In this document: piece after piece, positions 10,151-47,220 of the stretch
How positions within the stretch are numbered: the stretch's first letter is position 1
Layout: every line of letters starts with the position of its first letter
Assembly (NCBI RefSeq): GCF_002088945.1
Contig: NZ_NCSU01000015.1
Location: forward strand, 124,001 to 188,000
Length of the DNA: 64,000 bases
From: Henriciella pelagia
Lineage (GTDB): Bacteria; Pseudomonadota; Alphaproteobacteria; Caulobacterales; Hyphomonadaceae
Reading direction: 5' to 3'
The notes under the pieces: model-generated
Seen by the model: the letters and a program-made list of their open reading frames with translations, nothing else
Told to the model about the DNA's origin: nothing
The model's database searches: none
Translations under genes and position numbers: made by a program

Positions 10151-11139
10151 GATGAGGCCTCCACTTGCGACAGGTCAGGAAGGTCGACACCAGTTGCCAC
10201 GGGGAGGGCCATAGGAGGCGCTGCGGTACGCACAGCCACCCGCAAGCGAGAAGAGCGGGCGCGCGGATTGGCTTCAATTTCGGCATCCGTCGGCTCGATG
10301 GCCTTCTTCGACGGCATCTCGAAACTCGGCCGCGCCTCGTCTGCCTTCTCCGGCATATGGCGGGAACCGCCGCCCTGAAGGCCTGAGCGTTCCCGCATGA
10401 AAAGTTTCACCATCCTGTCCTCCAGTGAGTGGAAGGTCACGATGACGAGCCGCCCGCCCTCTTTCAGGACTTCTTCGGAAGCTTCCAGTGCGCGGGCCAG
10501 TTCTCCAAGCTCATCATTCACGAACATCCTGATCGCCTGGAACGAACGGGTTGCCGGGTGCGTGCGTGAGCCGCGCCGGCCACCGAGCGTCTCCTCGATC
10601 AGATTCGCAAGATCAAGGGTCGAAGTGAAAGGAGACTTAAGGCGGCGCTCTTTAATGGCGCGCGCGATCCGGCGGGACTGCTTTTCCTCGCCCAGCCGGA
10701 AGAAGATGGTCGCAAGATCACGCTCATCCATCTGGTTTACAACATCGGCCGCTGAAGGCCCGGCCTGCCCCATCCGCATGTCGAGCGGGCCGTCACGCAT
10801 GAAGGAGAAGCCGCGCTCGGCCTCATCCAGCTGGAAGGAAGACACACCGAGATCGAGCGTGATGGCATCGACCGCCGGAACGCTCACGCTCGCGAGCAGC
10901 TGCTTGATGTCGCCGAACTGCCCCTGCAGCGGGATCAGCCGCGGCTGTGACCTTGCGACCTCCAGTGCGCGCTTGATAGCATCGCCGTCGCGATCAATGC
11001 CGATAAGCCTGCACTCAGCCGCTGCGAGTAGCGCTTTCGCATAGCCTCCCCCACCAAAAGTGCCATCAACGAGCACGTCACCGGCCCGCGGCGCCATCGC
11101 CTCAACGACCTCTTTCAGAAGAACGGGAACGTGCGCCAT
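10147..11139 (-). CDS. rsmH: 16S rRNA (cytosine(1402)-N(4))-methyltransferase RsmH (MraW)
   Basis: RsmH (330 aa) methylates C1402 of 16S rRNA in the P site using S-adenosylmethionine. The N-terminus HVPVLLKEVVEAM and the SAM-binding DGTFGGGGYAKALL (residues 25-38) are family signatures. Also typical are DLGVSSFQLDEAERGFSF and ATRSFQAIRMFVNDEL. The ATG shares one base with the mraZ stop (TGATG), and the stop overlaps ftsL by 4. Its place second in the cluster, after mraZ, is nearly universal. Confidence 0.97.
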   Translation of the reverse strand: MAHVPVLLKEVVEAMAPRAGDVLVDGTFGGGGYAKALLAAAECRLIGIDRDGDAIKRALEVARSQPRLIPLQGQFGDIKQLLASVSVPAVDAITLDLGVSSFQLDEAERGFSFMRDGPLDMRMGQAGPSAADVVNQMDERDLATIFFRLGEEKQSRRIARAIKERRLKSPFTSTLDLANLIEETLGGRRGSRTHPATRSFQAIRMFVNDELGELARALEASEEVLKEGGRLVIVTFHSLEDRMVKLFMRERSGLQGGGSRHMPEKADEARPSFEMPSKKAIEPTDAEIEANPRARSSRLRVAVRTAAPPMALPVATGVDLPDLSQVEASS

Positions 11140-11633
11140 CAGTCGCCTCCCCCGCCACCGAAGCCTGGAAGACCGCCCGCCGCCATGGCCTGCTGGAATG
11201 GCTCGGCCATCGCATCCTGATTCTTGAGCGCGGTTTCCGCCATCTGGGCGTCGAAGGCTGCAAACCGCGATGGCTCCCAGATATGGAACCGGTCAAAGGC
11301 GCCCGCAAAGACCAACTTCTTCTCGATTCCGGCGGCCTCCAGCAGGGAAGCCGGGATGGAGATACGGCCCGTATCATCCATTTTCAGGTCAGCGGAACGG
11401 GTGAAGATGGTGTGCATGAAGGCGCGGCGATTGGGATCATTCGGCGCCATTCGCGCCAGGGTCTGGCGGTAGAGCGCCATCAGCTCGTCGCCGCCGCCCT
11501 CAAGGCAGCCGGAGCCGTCAATAGCCGGCCACAGGAATATGCGGTTTCCGCCAGCAAGGGCCGCGCGGAAGGGTGCGGGCACAGAGACCCGTCCTTTCGC
11601 ATCGAGCGATGTTTCATAGGTGGAAACAAACAC
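11139..11633 (-). CDS. mraZ: Transcriptional regulator MraZ, GTG start
   Basis: MraZ is a small DNA-binding protein made of two AbrB-like (SpoVT-AbrB) repeats that forms rings and represses its own dcw operon. The two DAKGRVSVP / DDTGRISIP repeats are clear near residues 12-20 and 79-87. I choose the GTG at 11633, giving MFVSTYETSLDAKGR and 164 aa, because the family starts MF(L/V)S and AAGGGA is eight bases upstream. A TTG one codon earlier is the only close alternative. A phased TGGG array lies just upstream, consistent with autoregulation. Confidence 0.93.
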   Translation of the reverse strand: MFVSTYETSLDAKGRVSVPAPFRAALAGGNRIFLWPAIDGSGCLEGGGDELMALYRQTLARMAPNDPNRRAFMHTIFTRSADLKMDDTGRISIPASLLEAAGIEKKLVFAGAFDRFHIWEPSRFAAFDAQMAETALKNQDAMAEPFQQAMAAGGLPGFGGGGGD

Positions 11634-11994
11634 CAACCGCTTCCCTTGTGCCCCACCACCCCAGTTCTTGGGATAGCATCATCATGGTTTGGGATAGCAT
11701 GGGGAAACTTGGGAACCAATGGGGCGACTGCCCGATTCGGTTACTCCACAAGAGATCATATGCGGAACAAATATAGAATGAACCGGAACTACCTCAGCAA
11801 ACACAGGCCCTTTCGCGCGTTAACAGTTTGAAAAGACTTTATTTACAGGGCATTAACCTGCCCCAAAAATCGCACAGCTTTTTTATGAAATTTTCAGCGC
11901 GAGAGCGGCCACCGCTTTGAGTCTGCACAGGCCAGGTGCATTCCTTGAAGAAATTGACGGCTTCGCAGGGTTTTCAGTGGTAAGGGCAGACCCG
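11634..11994. other. Divergent intergenic region between mraZ and trkH
   Basis: This 361-base gap separates the minus-strand dcw operon from plus-strand trkH. Its mraZ-proximal third holds the phased TGGG boxes. The middle (about 11740-11900) is AT-richer than its surroundings and should hold the dcw promoter. GATTC at 11734 and GAGTC at 11919 are CcrM/GcrA-type GANTC sites, but with only two their significance is unclear. I see no reading frame here with gene-like features. Confidence 0.6.
11668..11724. promoter_or_regulatory. MraZ-box array (TGGG repeats at 10-bp pitch)
   Basis: On the plus strand TGGG occurs at 11669, 11690, 11700, 11710 and 11720. The last four are spaced exactly 10 bp and the first is 21 bp (two turns) further away. 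MraZ is known in other bacteria to bind direct TGGGN repeats separated by 5 bp in front of its own gene, and this is that arrangement. The boxes lie 36-90 bases upstream of the mraZ start. Two further TGGG boxes occur on the opposite strand at 11651-11663. Binding is inferred and the repeats are seen directly. Confidence 0.8.
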
Positions 11995-20078: not shown

Positions 20079-20600
20079 CTAGCCGGCAATTCTCCGGGGT
20101 TCGCTGTCACTGGCATTCTTTCGGTCGCGCTTGCGCTGTGGCTGGAAGGCGACCTTGGCGTGTTCGGCGCAATATGGCCCGCAATCGGACTTGCGGCCGC
20201 AAAACGCAAACTTCGGATCGGCCGGGTCGCCGATGGGCCATTTACACATGGAGTCGCGAAGCGTGAGAATTGTCGCTGCCTCACCGTCGGCTACGGGAGC
20301 CGGCTGGAGTGCCGAAGCAATGGCATGCTGCTCGGAGCGGCGGATGCGCGTCTCTTCCGGCGACTTGATGGGGGCTGGCACCGATCCATCCGGGCTGAGC
20401 CTTGGCTTTGGCCGGGCCAGGCGCGGTGGACGCTTCACTGGGCGAGACGGCGTGGCGCGGCCCGACAGACCGAGCCGGTGAACCTTGCCGATCACGGCAT
20501 TGCGGGTCACTCCGCCCAGTTGTTTCGCAATCTGGCTGGCTGAATGACCTTCAGCCCAGAGTTTCTTCAGAACTTCGACGCGTTCTTCCGTCCAAGACAT
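20079..20600 (-). CDS. gcrA: GcrA cell-cycle regulator
   Basis: GcrA (173 aa) is the alphaproteobacterial factor that binds sigma70 and activates promoters carrying CcrM-methylated GANTC sites. The N-terminal DNA-binding domain MSWTEERVEVLKKLWAEG and VTRNAVIGKVHRLGLSGRA are nearly invariant in the family. A basic, proline-rich linker follows. The C-terminal sigma-binding part includes SMCKWPIGDP and a cysteine-rich FCGRKSDCGPYCAEHA. I start at ATG 20600, because AGGAGG lies seven bases upstream; an in-frame extension to 20624 has no support. Its presence implies a CtrA/GcrA/CcrM-type cell cycle. Confidence 0.96.
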   Translation of the reverse strand: MSWTEERVEVLKKLWAEGHSASQIAKQLGGVTRNAVIGKVHRLGLSGRATPSRPVKRPPRLARPKPRLSPDGSVPAPIKSPEETRIRRSEQHAIASALQPAPVADGEAATILTLRDSMCKWPIGDPADPKFAFCGRKSDCGPYCAEHAKVAFQPQRKRDRKNASDSEPRRIAG

Positions 20601-44366: not shown

Positions 44367-44951
44367 ATGACCAAGATAGGAATGATCTGCGGCGTTGACG
44401 AGGCCGGACGCGGCCCTTGGGCGGGGCCGGTAACGGCCGGCGCGGTCATACTCGACCCGGCGCAACCCATTGATGGACTGACAGATTCCAAGAAACTCAC
44501 AGAAGCCCGCCGCGAGGCGCTTTACCCGGAAATCAAGGCAAAAGCCCTGACCTTCGGCATAGGCTGGGCGAGTCCCGATGAGATTGACCGTCTCAATATC
44601 CGCGAAGCAACATTCCTCGCCATGACGCGCGCAATAGCCATAATGGGCATCATCCCGGACAAGGTTCTTGTGGATGGAAATTCGCTGCCAAGGGCCCTTC
44701 CCTGCCCGGCGAGCGCAATTGTCAAGGGCGACCTGACCGAGCCTGCAATCTCAGCTGCCTCGATCCTCGCCAAGGTCGCCCGGGACCGCGAGATGCAAGG
44801 CCTTGCCAACCAGTATCCCGGCTACGGCTTCCGTCAGCACAAGGGGTATGGCACGGCCGCGCATTCGTCAGCCTTGCGGGAACTCGGCCCCTGCAAGTGT
44901 CACCGAATGACCTTCGCGCCTGTCCGTAGGGCACTCGAAGCGGCCGCCTGA
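44367..44951 (+). CDS. rnhB: Ribonuclease HII
   Basis: RNase HII (194 aa) nicks RNA in RNA/DNA hybrids and removes single ribonucleotides from DNA. The active-site start [14 protein letters not shown] supplies the first Asp and Glu, KVLVDGN the third acidic residue, and [12 protein letters not shown] the last Asp region. The [10 protein letters not shown] motif near the end is typical. The usual leucine after GRGP is tryptophan here. It is 38 bases from the divergent reductase start. Confidence 0.96.
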
Positions 44952-44996
44952 GACCACAGAAAATCCTTCAAAGCACCTTTCCGGCACCCCGAGATG

Positions 44997-45013
44997 TTAA
45001 CCCGCAATTAACC
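44997..45013. promoter_or_regulatory. Full CtrA-type binding site (TTAA-N7-TTAAC)
   Basis: TTAACCCGCAATTAACC fits the CtrA consensus TTAA-N7-TTAAC exactly. It ends 43 bases before the GIY-YIG gene and starts 46 bases after the rnhB stop. It is the only TTAA-N7-TTAA I find in the window by eye. CtrA is the master response regulator of this bacterial group, so the downstream gene may be cell-cycle controlled; binding is inferred. Confidence 0.65.
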
Positions 45014-45056
45014 ATGTCGGCGGGACTCTTCGCCAAAGTATGGAGGAGGCACGCAG

Positions 45057-45491
45057 ATGATCGTGTTTGGTGCTCATCCCTGGTTTGGAGAAACCGGGCG
45101 CAAATACAAGTTCAACGTCACCCTGACGGACAAGGGAATCCCTGATGGCGCAGGGATCTATGTCTTCGTGCGCCGGCGGTTCGTCTTCTTTCTCGACCCG
45201 CTCTACATCGGCAAGGCGACCAACCTCAAAAGCCGCCTGATCGGCCATGAGCGCTGGCCGGAGGCCTGGTGGAATCGCGGCGCAACGGAGCGCCACATCC
45301 TGAAAGTGCCGAATGCCCGCGCCCGTGCCCGCATCGAGGAAGACCTCATCCGGCGCTATCAGCCTGTCATGAACGACATGCTTATCCCGCGCGGCGTTCT
45401 CGACGCGCCCAATAACCGCAAACTCGAAAAGGCCTGGCGGCGCAAGCGCTTCTGGAACCGTTTCTGGTGGGGCAAGGCCCACATCGGCTAG
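45057..45491 (+). CDS. Stand-alone GIY-YIG domain protein
   Basis: A 144-residue protein with one GIY-YIG nuclease-like domain. The landmarks are GIY at 33-35, YIG at 50-52, the catalytic-type arginine 60 in NLKSR, a glutamate in IEEDLIRRY at 94-95, and asparagine 106 in QPVMND. Such small proteins (UPF0213-like and relatives) may act on DNA, but no target is known. The C-terminus is very basic (KAWRRKRFWNRFWW). It has GGAGG upstream and a CtrA site in its promoter region. Confidence 0.78.
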   Translation: MIVFGAHPWFGETGRKYKFNVTLTDKGIPDGAGIYVFVRRRFVFFLDPLYIGKATNLKSRLIGHERWPEAWWNRGATERHILKVPNARARARIEEDLIRRYQPVMNDMLIPRGVLDAPNNRKLEKAWRRKRFWNRFWWGKAHIG

Positions 45492-45579
45492 CCGACGCGA
45501 CGTCAGCCCTCCCCGGCTCTCTGATTTCTGCTTATTCTCGCGGAAAACAGAAACAGTCATTCAGGGAGGCATGCTTGTA

Positions 45580-47220
45580 ATGGGCAACAGCATCTTCAAT
45601 CTCGGCGACATGCTCGATGCCGTTGGCCGCGAGCTTGGCGCCAATGATCCAGCACTGATCCACGGAGACCGCATTGTTTCATGGCCCGAGATGACGGCGC
45701 GTTCGAACAATGTCGCCCGAAACCTTCGTGCACGCGGTATCGAGACAGGTGACAAGGCCGGTTTCTATCTGCGCAACCAGCCGGAATACATGGAAGCGCT
45801 CGCCGCCTGCTTCAAAGGCCGCTTCACCCACGTCAACGTGAACTATCGCTACCTCGACGACGAACTGACCTACATTTTCGACAATTCGGACTCCGCCGTC
45901 GTCTTCTTTGACCGGGAGTTTCGCGGCAATGTTGAGCGGGTGCGGACAAAACTTCCGAAGGTGAAAGCCTGGGTCGAGATTGGCGGCGATGGGTCGGACA
46001 CGCCCGACTTTGCCCTGACCTATGAACACCTCGCCAGCGAAGGCGACGGAGCGCCGCTGGACATCGAGCGGTCCGATGATGACCAGCTCTTCCTCTATAC
46101 CGGAGGCACCACGGGCATGCCGAAAGGCGTCATGTGGAGCCACCGCATCTGGCGCGAAAGCTCCCGCGAAGCGATGGTGAAAATCTACGGCTTCGCGCCT
46201 GAGAACATGGACCAGCACATTGCGTGGACAAATGAGGCAGGAAAACTGTCGCGTCAGCTTCCGGCCTGCCCGCTGATGCATGGCACCGGCCTGTTCACAG
46301 CCATGGGCTCGATGATTGCGGGCGGCTGCATCGTTACATTGCAGAACACGAAAACGTTTGACCCGGTAGAACTCTGGGAAACGGTGGACCGCCATGGCGT
46401 TACGGCCATGGCCATTGTTGGCGACGCCTTCGCCAAGCCCATGCTGAAAGTGCTCGAAGCCAATCCTGGCAAGTATGACCTGTCATCCGTACAGACGATC
46501 ACCAGCTCCGGCGTGATGTGGTCCATGGAGGTCAAGCGCGGGCTCATCAAACACATCCCGCAGGTCGCACTGATGGACAGTTTCGGGGCTTCCGAAGCGG
46601 TCGGTTTCGGCATGTCGGTGACAACCGCAGAGGGCGTTCAGCAGACCGCGAAATTCCAGATTGGGGATACGTGCAAGGTGTTCACCGAAGACCGCCGCGA
46701 GGTGAAACCCGGCTCCGGAGAGGCCGGCCTCATCGCCCGCGGCGGCGCCGTGCCCCTCGGCTATTACAAGGACCCTGAAAAGTCCGCCAAGACCTTCTGG
46801 GAAGTCGATGGTGTCCGGTATGCGGTTCCGGGAGACTGGTGCACAGTCGATGAAGACGGCACGATCACCCTGCTTGGCCGAGGGTCGAACTGCATAAATT
46901 CGGCCGGCGAAAAAATCTATCCGGAAGAAGTGGAAGAGGCGCTGAAGAATCATGAGGCTGTGCGCGATGCCCTGGTGGTCGGCCTGCCAGACGACAAATG
47001 GGGCTCAGCGGTCACCGCCGTCGTGGAACTGAATGACGGGGCAAAGGCAGACGAAGACACGCTGCGCAGTTTCGTGCAGACCCAACTTGCGCGCTACAAG
47101 GCCCCCAAACGCATCTTCTTCAAGGCGGATCTCGGGCGCGCTCCCAACGGCAAGGCAGATTACAAGTCGATCAAGGCGTATGCGCTGGAACAGGCGGAGA
47201 CAGCGGCGAATATGAGGTAG
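45580..47220 (+). CDS. Acyl-CoA synthetase (AMP-forming)
   Basis: A 546-residue ANL-superfamily ligase that activates a carboxylate to an acyl-AMP and then the CoA thioester. The phosphate loop is YTGGTTGMPKGVMWSH near residue 174. Also present are DSFGASEAVG, GDWCTVDEDG and the C-terminal lysine region APNGKADYKSIK. I choose ATG 45580, because GGAGG is then at a normal distance; ATG 45571 is only one base from it. The chain class of the acid cannot be told; FadD3-like or steroid-side-chain ligases are possible. A terminator follows. Confidence 0.9.
   Translation: MGNSIFNLGDMLDAVGRELGANDPALIHGDRIVSWPEMTARSNNVARNLRARGIETGDKAGFYLRNQPEYMEALAACFKGRFTHVNVNYRYLDDELTYIFDNSDSAVVFFDREFRGNVERVRTKLPKVKAWVEIGGDGSDTPDFALTYEHLASEGDGAPLDIERSDDDQLFLYTGGTTGMPKGVMWSHRIWRESSREAMVKIYGFAPENMDQHIAWTNEAGKLSRQLPACPLMHGTGLFTAMGSMIAGGCIVTLQNTKTFDPVELWETVDRHGVTAMAIVGDAFAKPMLKVLEANPGKYDLSSVQTITSSGVMWSMEVKRGLIKHIPQVALMDSFGASEAVGFGMSVTTAEGVQQTAKFQIGDTCKVFTEDRREVKPGSGEAGLIARGGAVPLGYYKDPEKSAKTFWEVDGVRYAVPGDWCTVDEDGTITLLGRGSNCINSAGEKIYPEEVEEALKNHEAVRDALVVGLPDDKWGSAVTAVVELNDGAKADEDTLRSFVQTQLARYKAPKRIFFKADLGRAPNGKADYKSIKAYALEQAETAANMR

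Follow-up and report, generated by a model that had tools for sequence, protein, structure and literature searches.

A conserved CtrA-type site upstream of a stand-alone GIY-YIG nuclease-type gene in the Hyphomonadaceae

Is a small nuclease-type gene of Henriciella pelagia controlled by the cell-cycle regulator CtrA, and what might a DNA-cutting protein on such a schedule do? The question is raised by a 64-kb window, which is the whole stretch of DNA analysed here (64,000 nucleotides), in which a consensus CtrA site precedes a stand-alone GIY-YIG gene. A CtrA box that a nuclease gene keeps throughout a family while its neighbours vary would link the cleavage of DNA with the cell cycle.

The site in its window and genome

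The CtrA-type site TTAACCCGCAATTAACC (TTAA-N7-TTAAC and the C that follows it) is an exact match on the forward strand at positions 44997–45013, and because it is nearly palindromic it is read on both strands. It begins after a gap of 45 bases from the stop codon of rnhB (ribonuclease HII, a neighbour outside the unit; 44367–44951, forward strand; PF01351, E 3.7e-42), and a further 43 bases (45014–45056) separate it from the ATG at 45057, where the gene of interest starts (45057–45491, forward strand; 144 amino acids). The preliminary description had the sequence, the coordinates and the distance to the ATG right, as well as the statement that the window contains no other full site: exact TTAA-N7-TTAAC is found at this single place. 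Two one-mismatch places occur elsewhere in the window, at 10625 and 11842, and the latter, the CtrA-like sequence TTTACAGGGCATTAAC (11842–11857), lies about 206 bases before the mraZ reading frame (11139–11636, reverse strand) that heads the mraZ-rsmH division cluster.

Between the box and the ATG, the forward strand carries GACTC, a CcrM (GANTC) methylation-type site (45024–45028), 11 bases after the 16-base box, and the putative Shine-Dalgarno-like sequence GGAGGAGG (45042–45049), 7 bases before the ATG. An Rfam scan of the leader region (44900–45600) gave no match at gathering scores, and a sigma-70 consensus scan of 44900–45700 found no promoter. Downstream, after 79 bases, follows an AMP-binding gene of the acyl-CoA synthetase type (45571–47220, forward strand; PF00501), which is a possible read-through partner of the GIY-YIG gene and is present at 4 of 80 orthologue loci.

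Taken by itself, the match in the window is not significant, because TTAA-N7-TTAA is expected 0.09 times per window by chance and at least one copy was held by 9 of 100 shuffled windows. The exact motif TTAA-N7-TTAAC occurs at six distinct places in the 3.44-Mb genome, which amount to 11 strand hits; the reversed pattern gives 13, so that this genome shows no enrichment over the reversed control; among 12 relatives, the motif was above the control in six, equal to it in one, and below it in five. Genome-wide enrichment was accordingly dropped as a line of support. The other five exact sites include one before parE (G000 C2:500213), one that precedes a gene with several PAS domains (C13:60588), and one in the interval that separates hemE from a PPSR-type gene (C14:513237); the remaining two are flanked by an amidase-type frame and a frame without a family match, and by phoH-type and gamma carbonic anhydrase genes, respectively. 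The multi-PAS gene reads like divL, a name that is our own reading of a frame with PAS domains but no NCBIfam name. The hemE/PPSR-type region may be the replication origin; according to the available part of one source, a TTAA-N7-TTAA site is present in the Caulobacter hemE promoter (PMC11264516).

Conservation of the site with the gene

Most occurrences of the gene are in the Hyphomonadaceae and a single sister family. By protein, the closest named relatives among the best 80 of 136 hits belong to Henriciella (85% identity), followed by Hyphomonas (Hyphomonadaceae), a ranking that may omit records very near the window. The gene is present in 81 of 105 genomes of the family, and in the genus of the window it was detected in 19 of 29 genomes and is absent from 10, so it is dispensable. 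In genus g5, which is taken to be Hyphomonas, 41 of the 42 listed genomes have it. Across the order, 89 of 299 genomes carry the gene: 47 belong to the family of the window and the other 42 to a second family, f3, of which genome G597 has a distant paralogue only. In a sample spread over the class, 8 of 385 genomes matched at E<=1e-8, strong matches being confined to the window genome and one other member of the family.

For the comparison of promoters, the orthologues were the best 80 of 136 hits, in named genomes, of a protein profile (A1) whose source genomes were known beforehand to vary in the site; promoters were ignored in the choice, and start codons were set automatically near the start of the match. 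Together with the window gene, 74 of the 81 upstream regions, scored over 100 bp, carry a site that departs from the pattern at no more than one position: 32 are exact, 42 have one mismatch, three have two, and four (L143, L163, L166, and L173) have four or five, which amounts to loss or strong decay. When the search was extended to 150 bases upstream and limited to exact TTAA-N7-TTAAC, 31 of the 80 orthologues had the motif and 49 did not. In other 100-base windows of the same sequences, none of 4,486 contained an exact site and three a site with one mismatch, and in shuffled upstream regions the rates were 0.09% and 1.1%, respectively (about 1.2% together). All of these site counts come from related sequences and are not independent observations.

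The same search was applied to genes beside, beyond and distantly related to the orthologues. Upstream regions of neighbouring genes (rnhB, ttcA, a zinc-type dehydrogenase, the AMP-binding gene, and a carboxylase), counted from the start of the tblastn match and with 3 of 17 carboxylase regions skipped since they overlap the site region, gave no site with at most one mismatch in 113 cases. Further orthologues, which are new species but close kin of the earlier ones, had such a site in 11 of 13 cases, six of them exact; these 13 were left of 40 fetched upstream regions after 27 had been set aside because their last 60 bases equalled those of earlier loci. One orthologue (genome G450, L236) starts at 2,916,153 and has the exact site TTAAGACCTTGTTAAC at 2,916,092–2,916,107. 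Among distant GIY-YIG paralogues of sister-family genomes (matches at E about 1e-15 to 1e-21), 0 of 20 upstream regions had a site with at most one mismatch. These paralogues (L210–L229) have LFIG, LFVA or the like in the YIG strand, so that the active site looks altered. Because the site is conserved with the gene, its significance goes far beyond chance; lack of conservation of the site with the gene was one of the results that the preliminary description had named as refuting its proposal, and the counts gave the opposite.

In the 32 exact cases, where the letters of TTAA and TTAAC are fixed by construction, so that information comes from the spacer and the following base alone, all seven spacer positions vary and the base after TTAAC is C in 32 of 32. 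Frequent one-mismatch forms are TTCA-N7-TTAACC, TTAG-N7-TTAACC, and TTAA-N7-TTTAC. A quick tree, in which 22 of 61 inner branches are weak, places the site in every main group, with seven changes of site state and five of gene context, and exact, one-mismatch, and missing sites are spread over several of its deep groups. Two TTAACC-like half-sites 21 bases apart, a spacing of two helical turns, precede a divergent version of the gene (L010–L019, L022, and L023) and also L007; in many of these loci the first half-site doubles as the second half of a TTAG-N7-TTAACC box.

The preliminary description also attached significance to the adjoining rnhB, and this part did not hold. Neighbours were typed by tblastn of named genes (one query, fam1, duplicated the carboxylase), which was used in place of an earlier neighbourhood clustering that proved too noisy. 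Within 3 kb of the best 80 of 136 orthologue loci, rnhB was found at 40, a biotin carboxylase-type gene at 17, and neither at 23, and the site is retained in all three contexts. For example, extra DNA in G025 and G019 puts the rnhB stop codon 782 and 285 bases, respectively, from the site, which still lies 60–62 bases before the ATG, and in G033 rnhB is more than 1 Mb away from gene and site. Since the site stays with the gene as the neighbourhood changes, rnhB is incidental, and a general functional coupling with it was rejected. None of the neighbours proved constant across the orthologue loci; a divergent 2OG-Fe(II) oxygenase-type gene lies upstream in four of six listed loci (L150, L164, L174, and L177). 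What stands of the original interpretation is therefore a conserved CtrA-type site and the predicted GIY-YIG nuclease identity of the gene product, and what falls is the significance of rnhB.

The GIY-YIG protein

The identification of the 144-residue protein draws on a UvrC profile match and an AlphaFold2 model. In a profile search of solved structures, only UvrC GIY-YIG domains were found at E<=0.001 (six sequences, best 2.1e-7). The AlphaFold2 model, computed with 64 sequences, has a mean pLDDT of 87.3, and its best match in a fold search was UvrC of Thermotoga maritima (1ycz; Z 10.3, rmsd 2.0 over 79 residues, 30% identity). Besides UvrC, only the N-terminal domain of a plant Grx (Z 9.0) and T4 endonuclease II (Z 8.7) scored above Z 8, in a list from which the omission of a family does not exclude it; R.Eco29kI (Z 6.6) and PD-T4-3 (Z 5.6) followed in a range where a match may mean little.

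Residues Y35, Y50, R60, E94, and N106 align with UvrC Y19, Y29, R39, E76, and N88, and H64 aligns with Y43 (numbering counted by hand from the profile alignment); all six are invariant in 64 of 64 sequences. Thus, the catalytic residues named at the outset, Arg60 and Glu94, do correspond to those of UvrC, and the description of the protein as nuclease-like agrees with the modelled fold and the invariant positions. The GIY...YIG strands and catalytic residues that define the superfamily are present, and the fold is that of the superfamily in the predicted model.

Curated families recover the protein less readily. Pfam PF01541 scores 12.7 bits with the window protein, below its gathering cut-off of 22.6, and matches 10 of 13 A1 members at E<=1 (best 3.4e-4); because the residues and the predicted fold fit GIY-YIG, we read the sub-cut-off score as a limit of sensitivity. 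The best NCBIfam match is Cho, a UvrC homologue (NF007833; residues 26–109, E 2.2e-6), yet the curated family scores are not reached for either Cho (27.1 of 367 bits) or UvrC (TIGR00194; 11 of 285 bits), and a full-length UvrC is encoded separately in the same genome. No named family for the intact stand-alone protein was found in Pfam, NCBIfam, or PADLOC. The model and the residues point to a stand-alone GIY-YIG nuclease with a UvrC-type domain, for which nuclease activity is likely.

Control by CtrA and the role of the nuclease

The genome encodes the circuit into which such a promoter would fit. A CtrA homologue is present (78% identity, E 1.6e-117, with a Caulobacter CtrA sequence as the query), CcrM is also encoded, and gcrA lies in the window itself (20121–20600, reverse strand; G000:C6:144121–144600; PF07750, E 5.7e-50). 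GcrA is a cell-cycle regulator that works together with CcrM. The gene combines the sequence marks of a CtrA regulon member, a conserved upstream box in a genome that encodes CtrA, with a GANTC site near the presumed promoter (GACTC, as located above), as in GcrA/CcrM promoters. Among the 73 of 81 relatives with a plus-orientation site of at most one mismatch, 29 have GANTC within 30 bases after the site, compared with 606 of 15,163 control windows (4%). In ten of these the distance from the box is 11 bases and the middle base differs from case to case, and in nine GANTC adjoins the box; where the window has GACTC, the closest relative, whose protein is 97% identical, has GAGTC at the same offset.

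In Hyphomonas neptunium, the available part of the CtrA ChIP-seq report gives TTAA-N7-TTAAC as the consensus, derived from 80 strongly bound regions among 222 sites (PMC7200025). In Caulobacter, as far as the available parts of two sources go, the full CtrA motif lies mostly at -35 and is associated with activation, and cell-cycle promoters fall into timing groups according to where GANTC lies (PMC4287350, PMC11264516). The second of these sources describes replacement of TTAA half-sites by GGCC at pilA (PMC11264516). If -39 is where the box begins, as in ctrA P2, the transcription start would be expected near 45036, a short way upstream of GGAGGAGG, and GACTC would fall near -10 and not clearly between -35 and -10.

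On these grounds, CtrA control of the gene appears well supported by conservation of the box, and production of the protein probably depends on the stage of the cell cycle. We consider it likely that the gene encodes a CtrA-controlled stand-alone GIY-YIG endonuclease, which would process chromosomal DNA at one such stage. Bound to the TTAA-N7-TTAAC box, in probable overlap with the -35 element, CtrA would control transcription directly and would most likely act as an activator in predivisional or swarmer-type cells; in some lineages, CcrM methylation at GANTC may join the control, possibly read by GcrA. The protein would cut DNA with a UvrC-type active site (Y35, Y50, R60, H64, E94, and N106), and its most likely job would be the processing of repair or recombination intermediates of the chromosome at the stage that CtrA sets. 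CtrA occupancy, the direction and timing of control, catalysis, and the substrate are all points that we infer. Chromosome maintenance is favoured, as a matter of judgement, given that nearly all listed genomes of one genus have the gene and that the fold is of a repair type. A more specific version, put forward tentatively and on balance doubtful, is that in Hyphomonadaceae the CtrA/CcrM clock restricts a dedicated endonuclease to a single cell type, the non-replicating swarmer or late predivisional cell. Incoming DNA, or DNA with the wrong methylation, could be destroyed there, or junctions between chromosomes resolved, while replicating DNA stays unharmed.

Several other readings of the promoter can be weighed against the same data. 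That the box is a chance match is favoured by the shuffled windows and by the lack of genome-wide enrichment, but the counts in orthologues (74/81), neighbouring genes (0/113), paralogues (0/20), and further orthologues (11/13) rule this candidate out and leave it a negligible likelihood. It has also to be asked whether the site is left over from a ccrM gene behind rnhB, with the GIY-YIG gene merely inserted behind it. The ccrM gene is often CtrA-controlled, a ccrM-type frame begins no more than about 1 kb downstream of rnhB in 7 of the 13 genomes outside the family (L038–L056) and in 0 of 17 inside it, and in G039, outside the family, the rnhB stop codon coincides with an exact CtrA-type site. 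Still, loci that have no rnhB, or have it far away, retain the site in front of the gene, and in four genomes that lack the gene (G002, G004, G009, and G018) no exact site lies within 1.5 kb of rnhB; an origin from a ccrM promoter was mostly rejected as a candidate, appears largely refuted by these comparisons, and is highly improbable, and descent of the GIY-YIG promoter from that of ccrM would not be needed. Binding of the box mainly by another TTAA-recognising regulator, or its being part of a sigma-factor promoter with CtrA uninvolved, is very unlikely: in some lineages a second TTAACC lies 21 bases downstream of the first, which is not the classical spacing, and MucR and SciP act at Caulobacter CtrA promoters in the available part of one source (PMC4287350), but the box fits the ChIP-derived H. 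neptunium consensus (PMC7200025, available part), and the 7-base spacing fits 74 of 81 upstream regions at no more than one mismatch while the spacer itself varies.

Two further readings keep the promoter and change the task of the protein. A defence nuclease of a restriction-like kind, made when CtrA-driven pili and flagella expose the cell to phages, is unlikely, if worth keeping in mind. In its favour are the alignments of the model with T4 endonuclease II, R.Eco29kI, and PD-T4-3 and the patchy occurrence within the genus (19 of 29), as well as the repression of the Caulobacter GIY-YIG genes CCNA_00744 and CCNA_01405 on induction of a phage regulator, reported in the available part of one study (PMC10688885). 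Against it, PADLOC matches of the protein are weak (best E 0.0013), and 10 flanking proteins from five loci contain no recognisable PADLOC system, the partial matches being a desaturase-type model (L140) and mads_2 at 116 of 492 positions (L102). Moreover, the gene occurs in nearly every listed g5 genome, and most defence genes are not so uniformly present within a genus. A CtrA-timed nuclease for DNA uptake or for recombination of gene-transfer-agent DNA would accord with the general knowledge that CtrA governs such functions in other alphaproteobacteria, but no competence or gene-transfer-agent gene was recognised among the few named neighbours, and we hold this quite unlikely.

The reading of a CtrA-controlled endonuclease that processes chromosomal DNA can finally be set beside known systems. 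No published link between CtrA or the cell cycle and GIY-YIG proteins was found for Caulobacter, Hyphomonas, Henriciella, or the alphaproteobacteria, and GIY-YIG has no occurrence in the main text of the H. neptunium regulon study, although its supplementary tables may list the gene (PMC7200025). In the available part of that study, the highlighted CtrA targets are motility, pili, division, and c-di-GMP genes, and 37% of the direct regulon has no predicted function (PMC7200025). With promoters of the H. neptunium and Caulobacter CtrA regulons, the GIY-YIG gene shares the upstream TTAA-N7-TTAA(C) box. With the N-terminal domain of UvrC, its product shares the predicted GIY-YIG fold and five aligned catalytic residues; unlike UvrC, the protein is stand-alone and too short for the rest of that enzyme, its model adds an N-terminal strand pair and a C-terminal helix, and H64 replaces Y43 of the T. 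maritima protein. It also differs from Cho, falling far below the cut-off of that family (27.1 vs 367 bits). T4 endonuclease II (2wsh), a phage enzyme that breaks down host DNA, is likewise a stand-alone GIY-YIG protein of similar size, whose alignment covers residues 6–107 (Z 8.7, rmsd 2.7 over 91 residues); the identity is 18%, however, and the 144-residue protein is encoded by a chromosomal gene common to most of one family.
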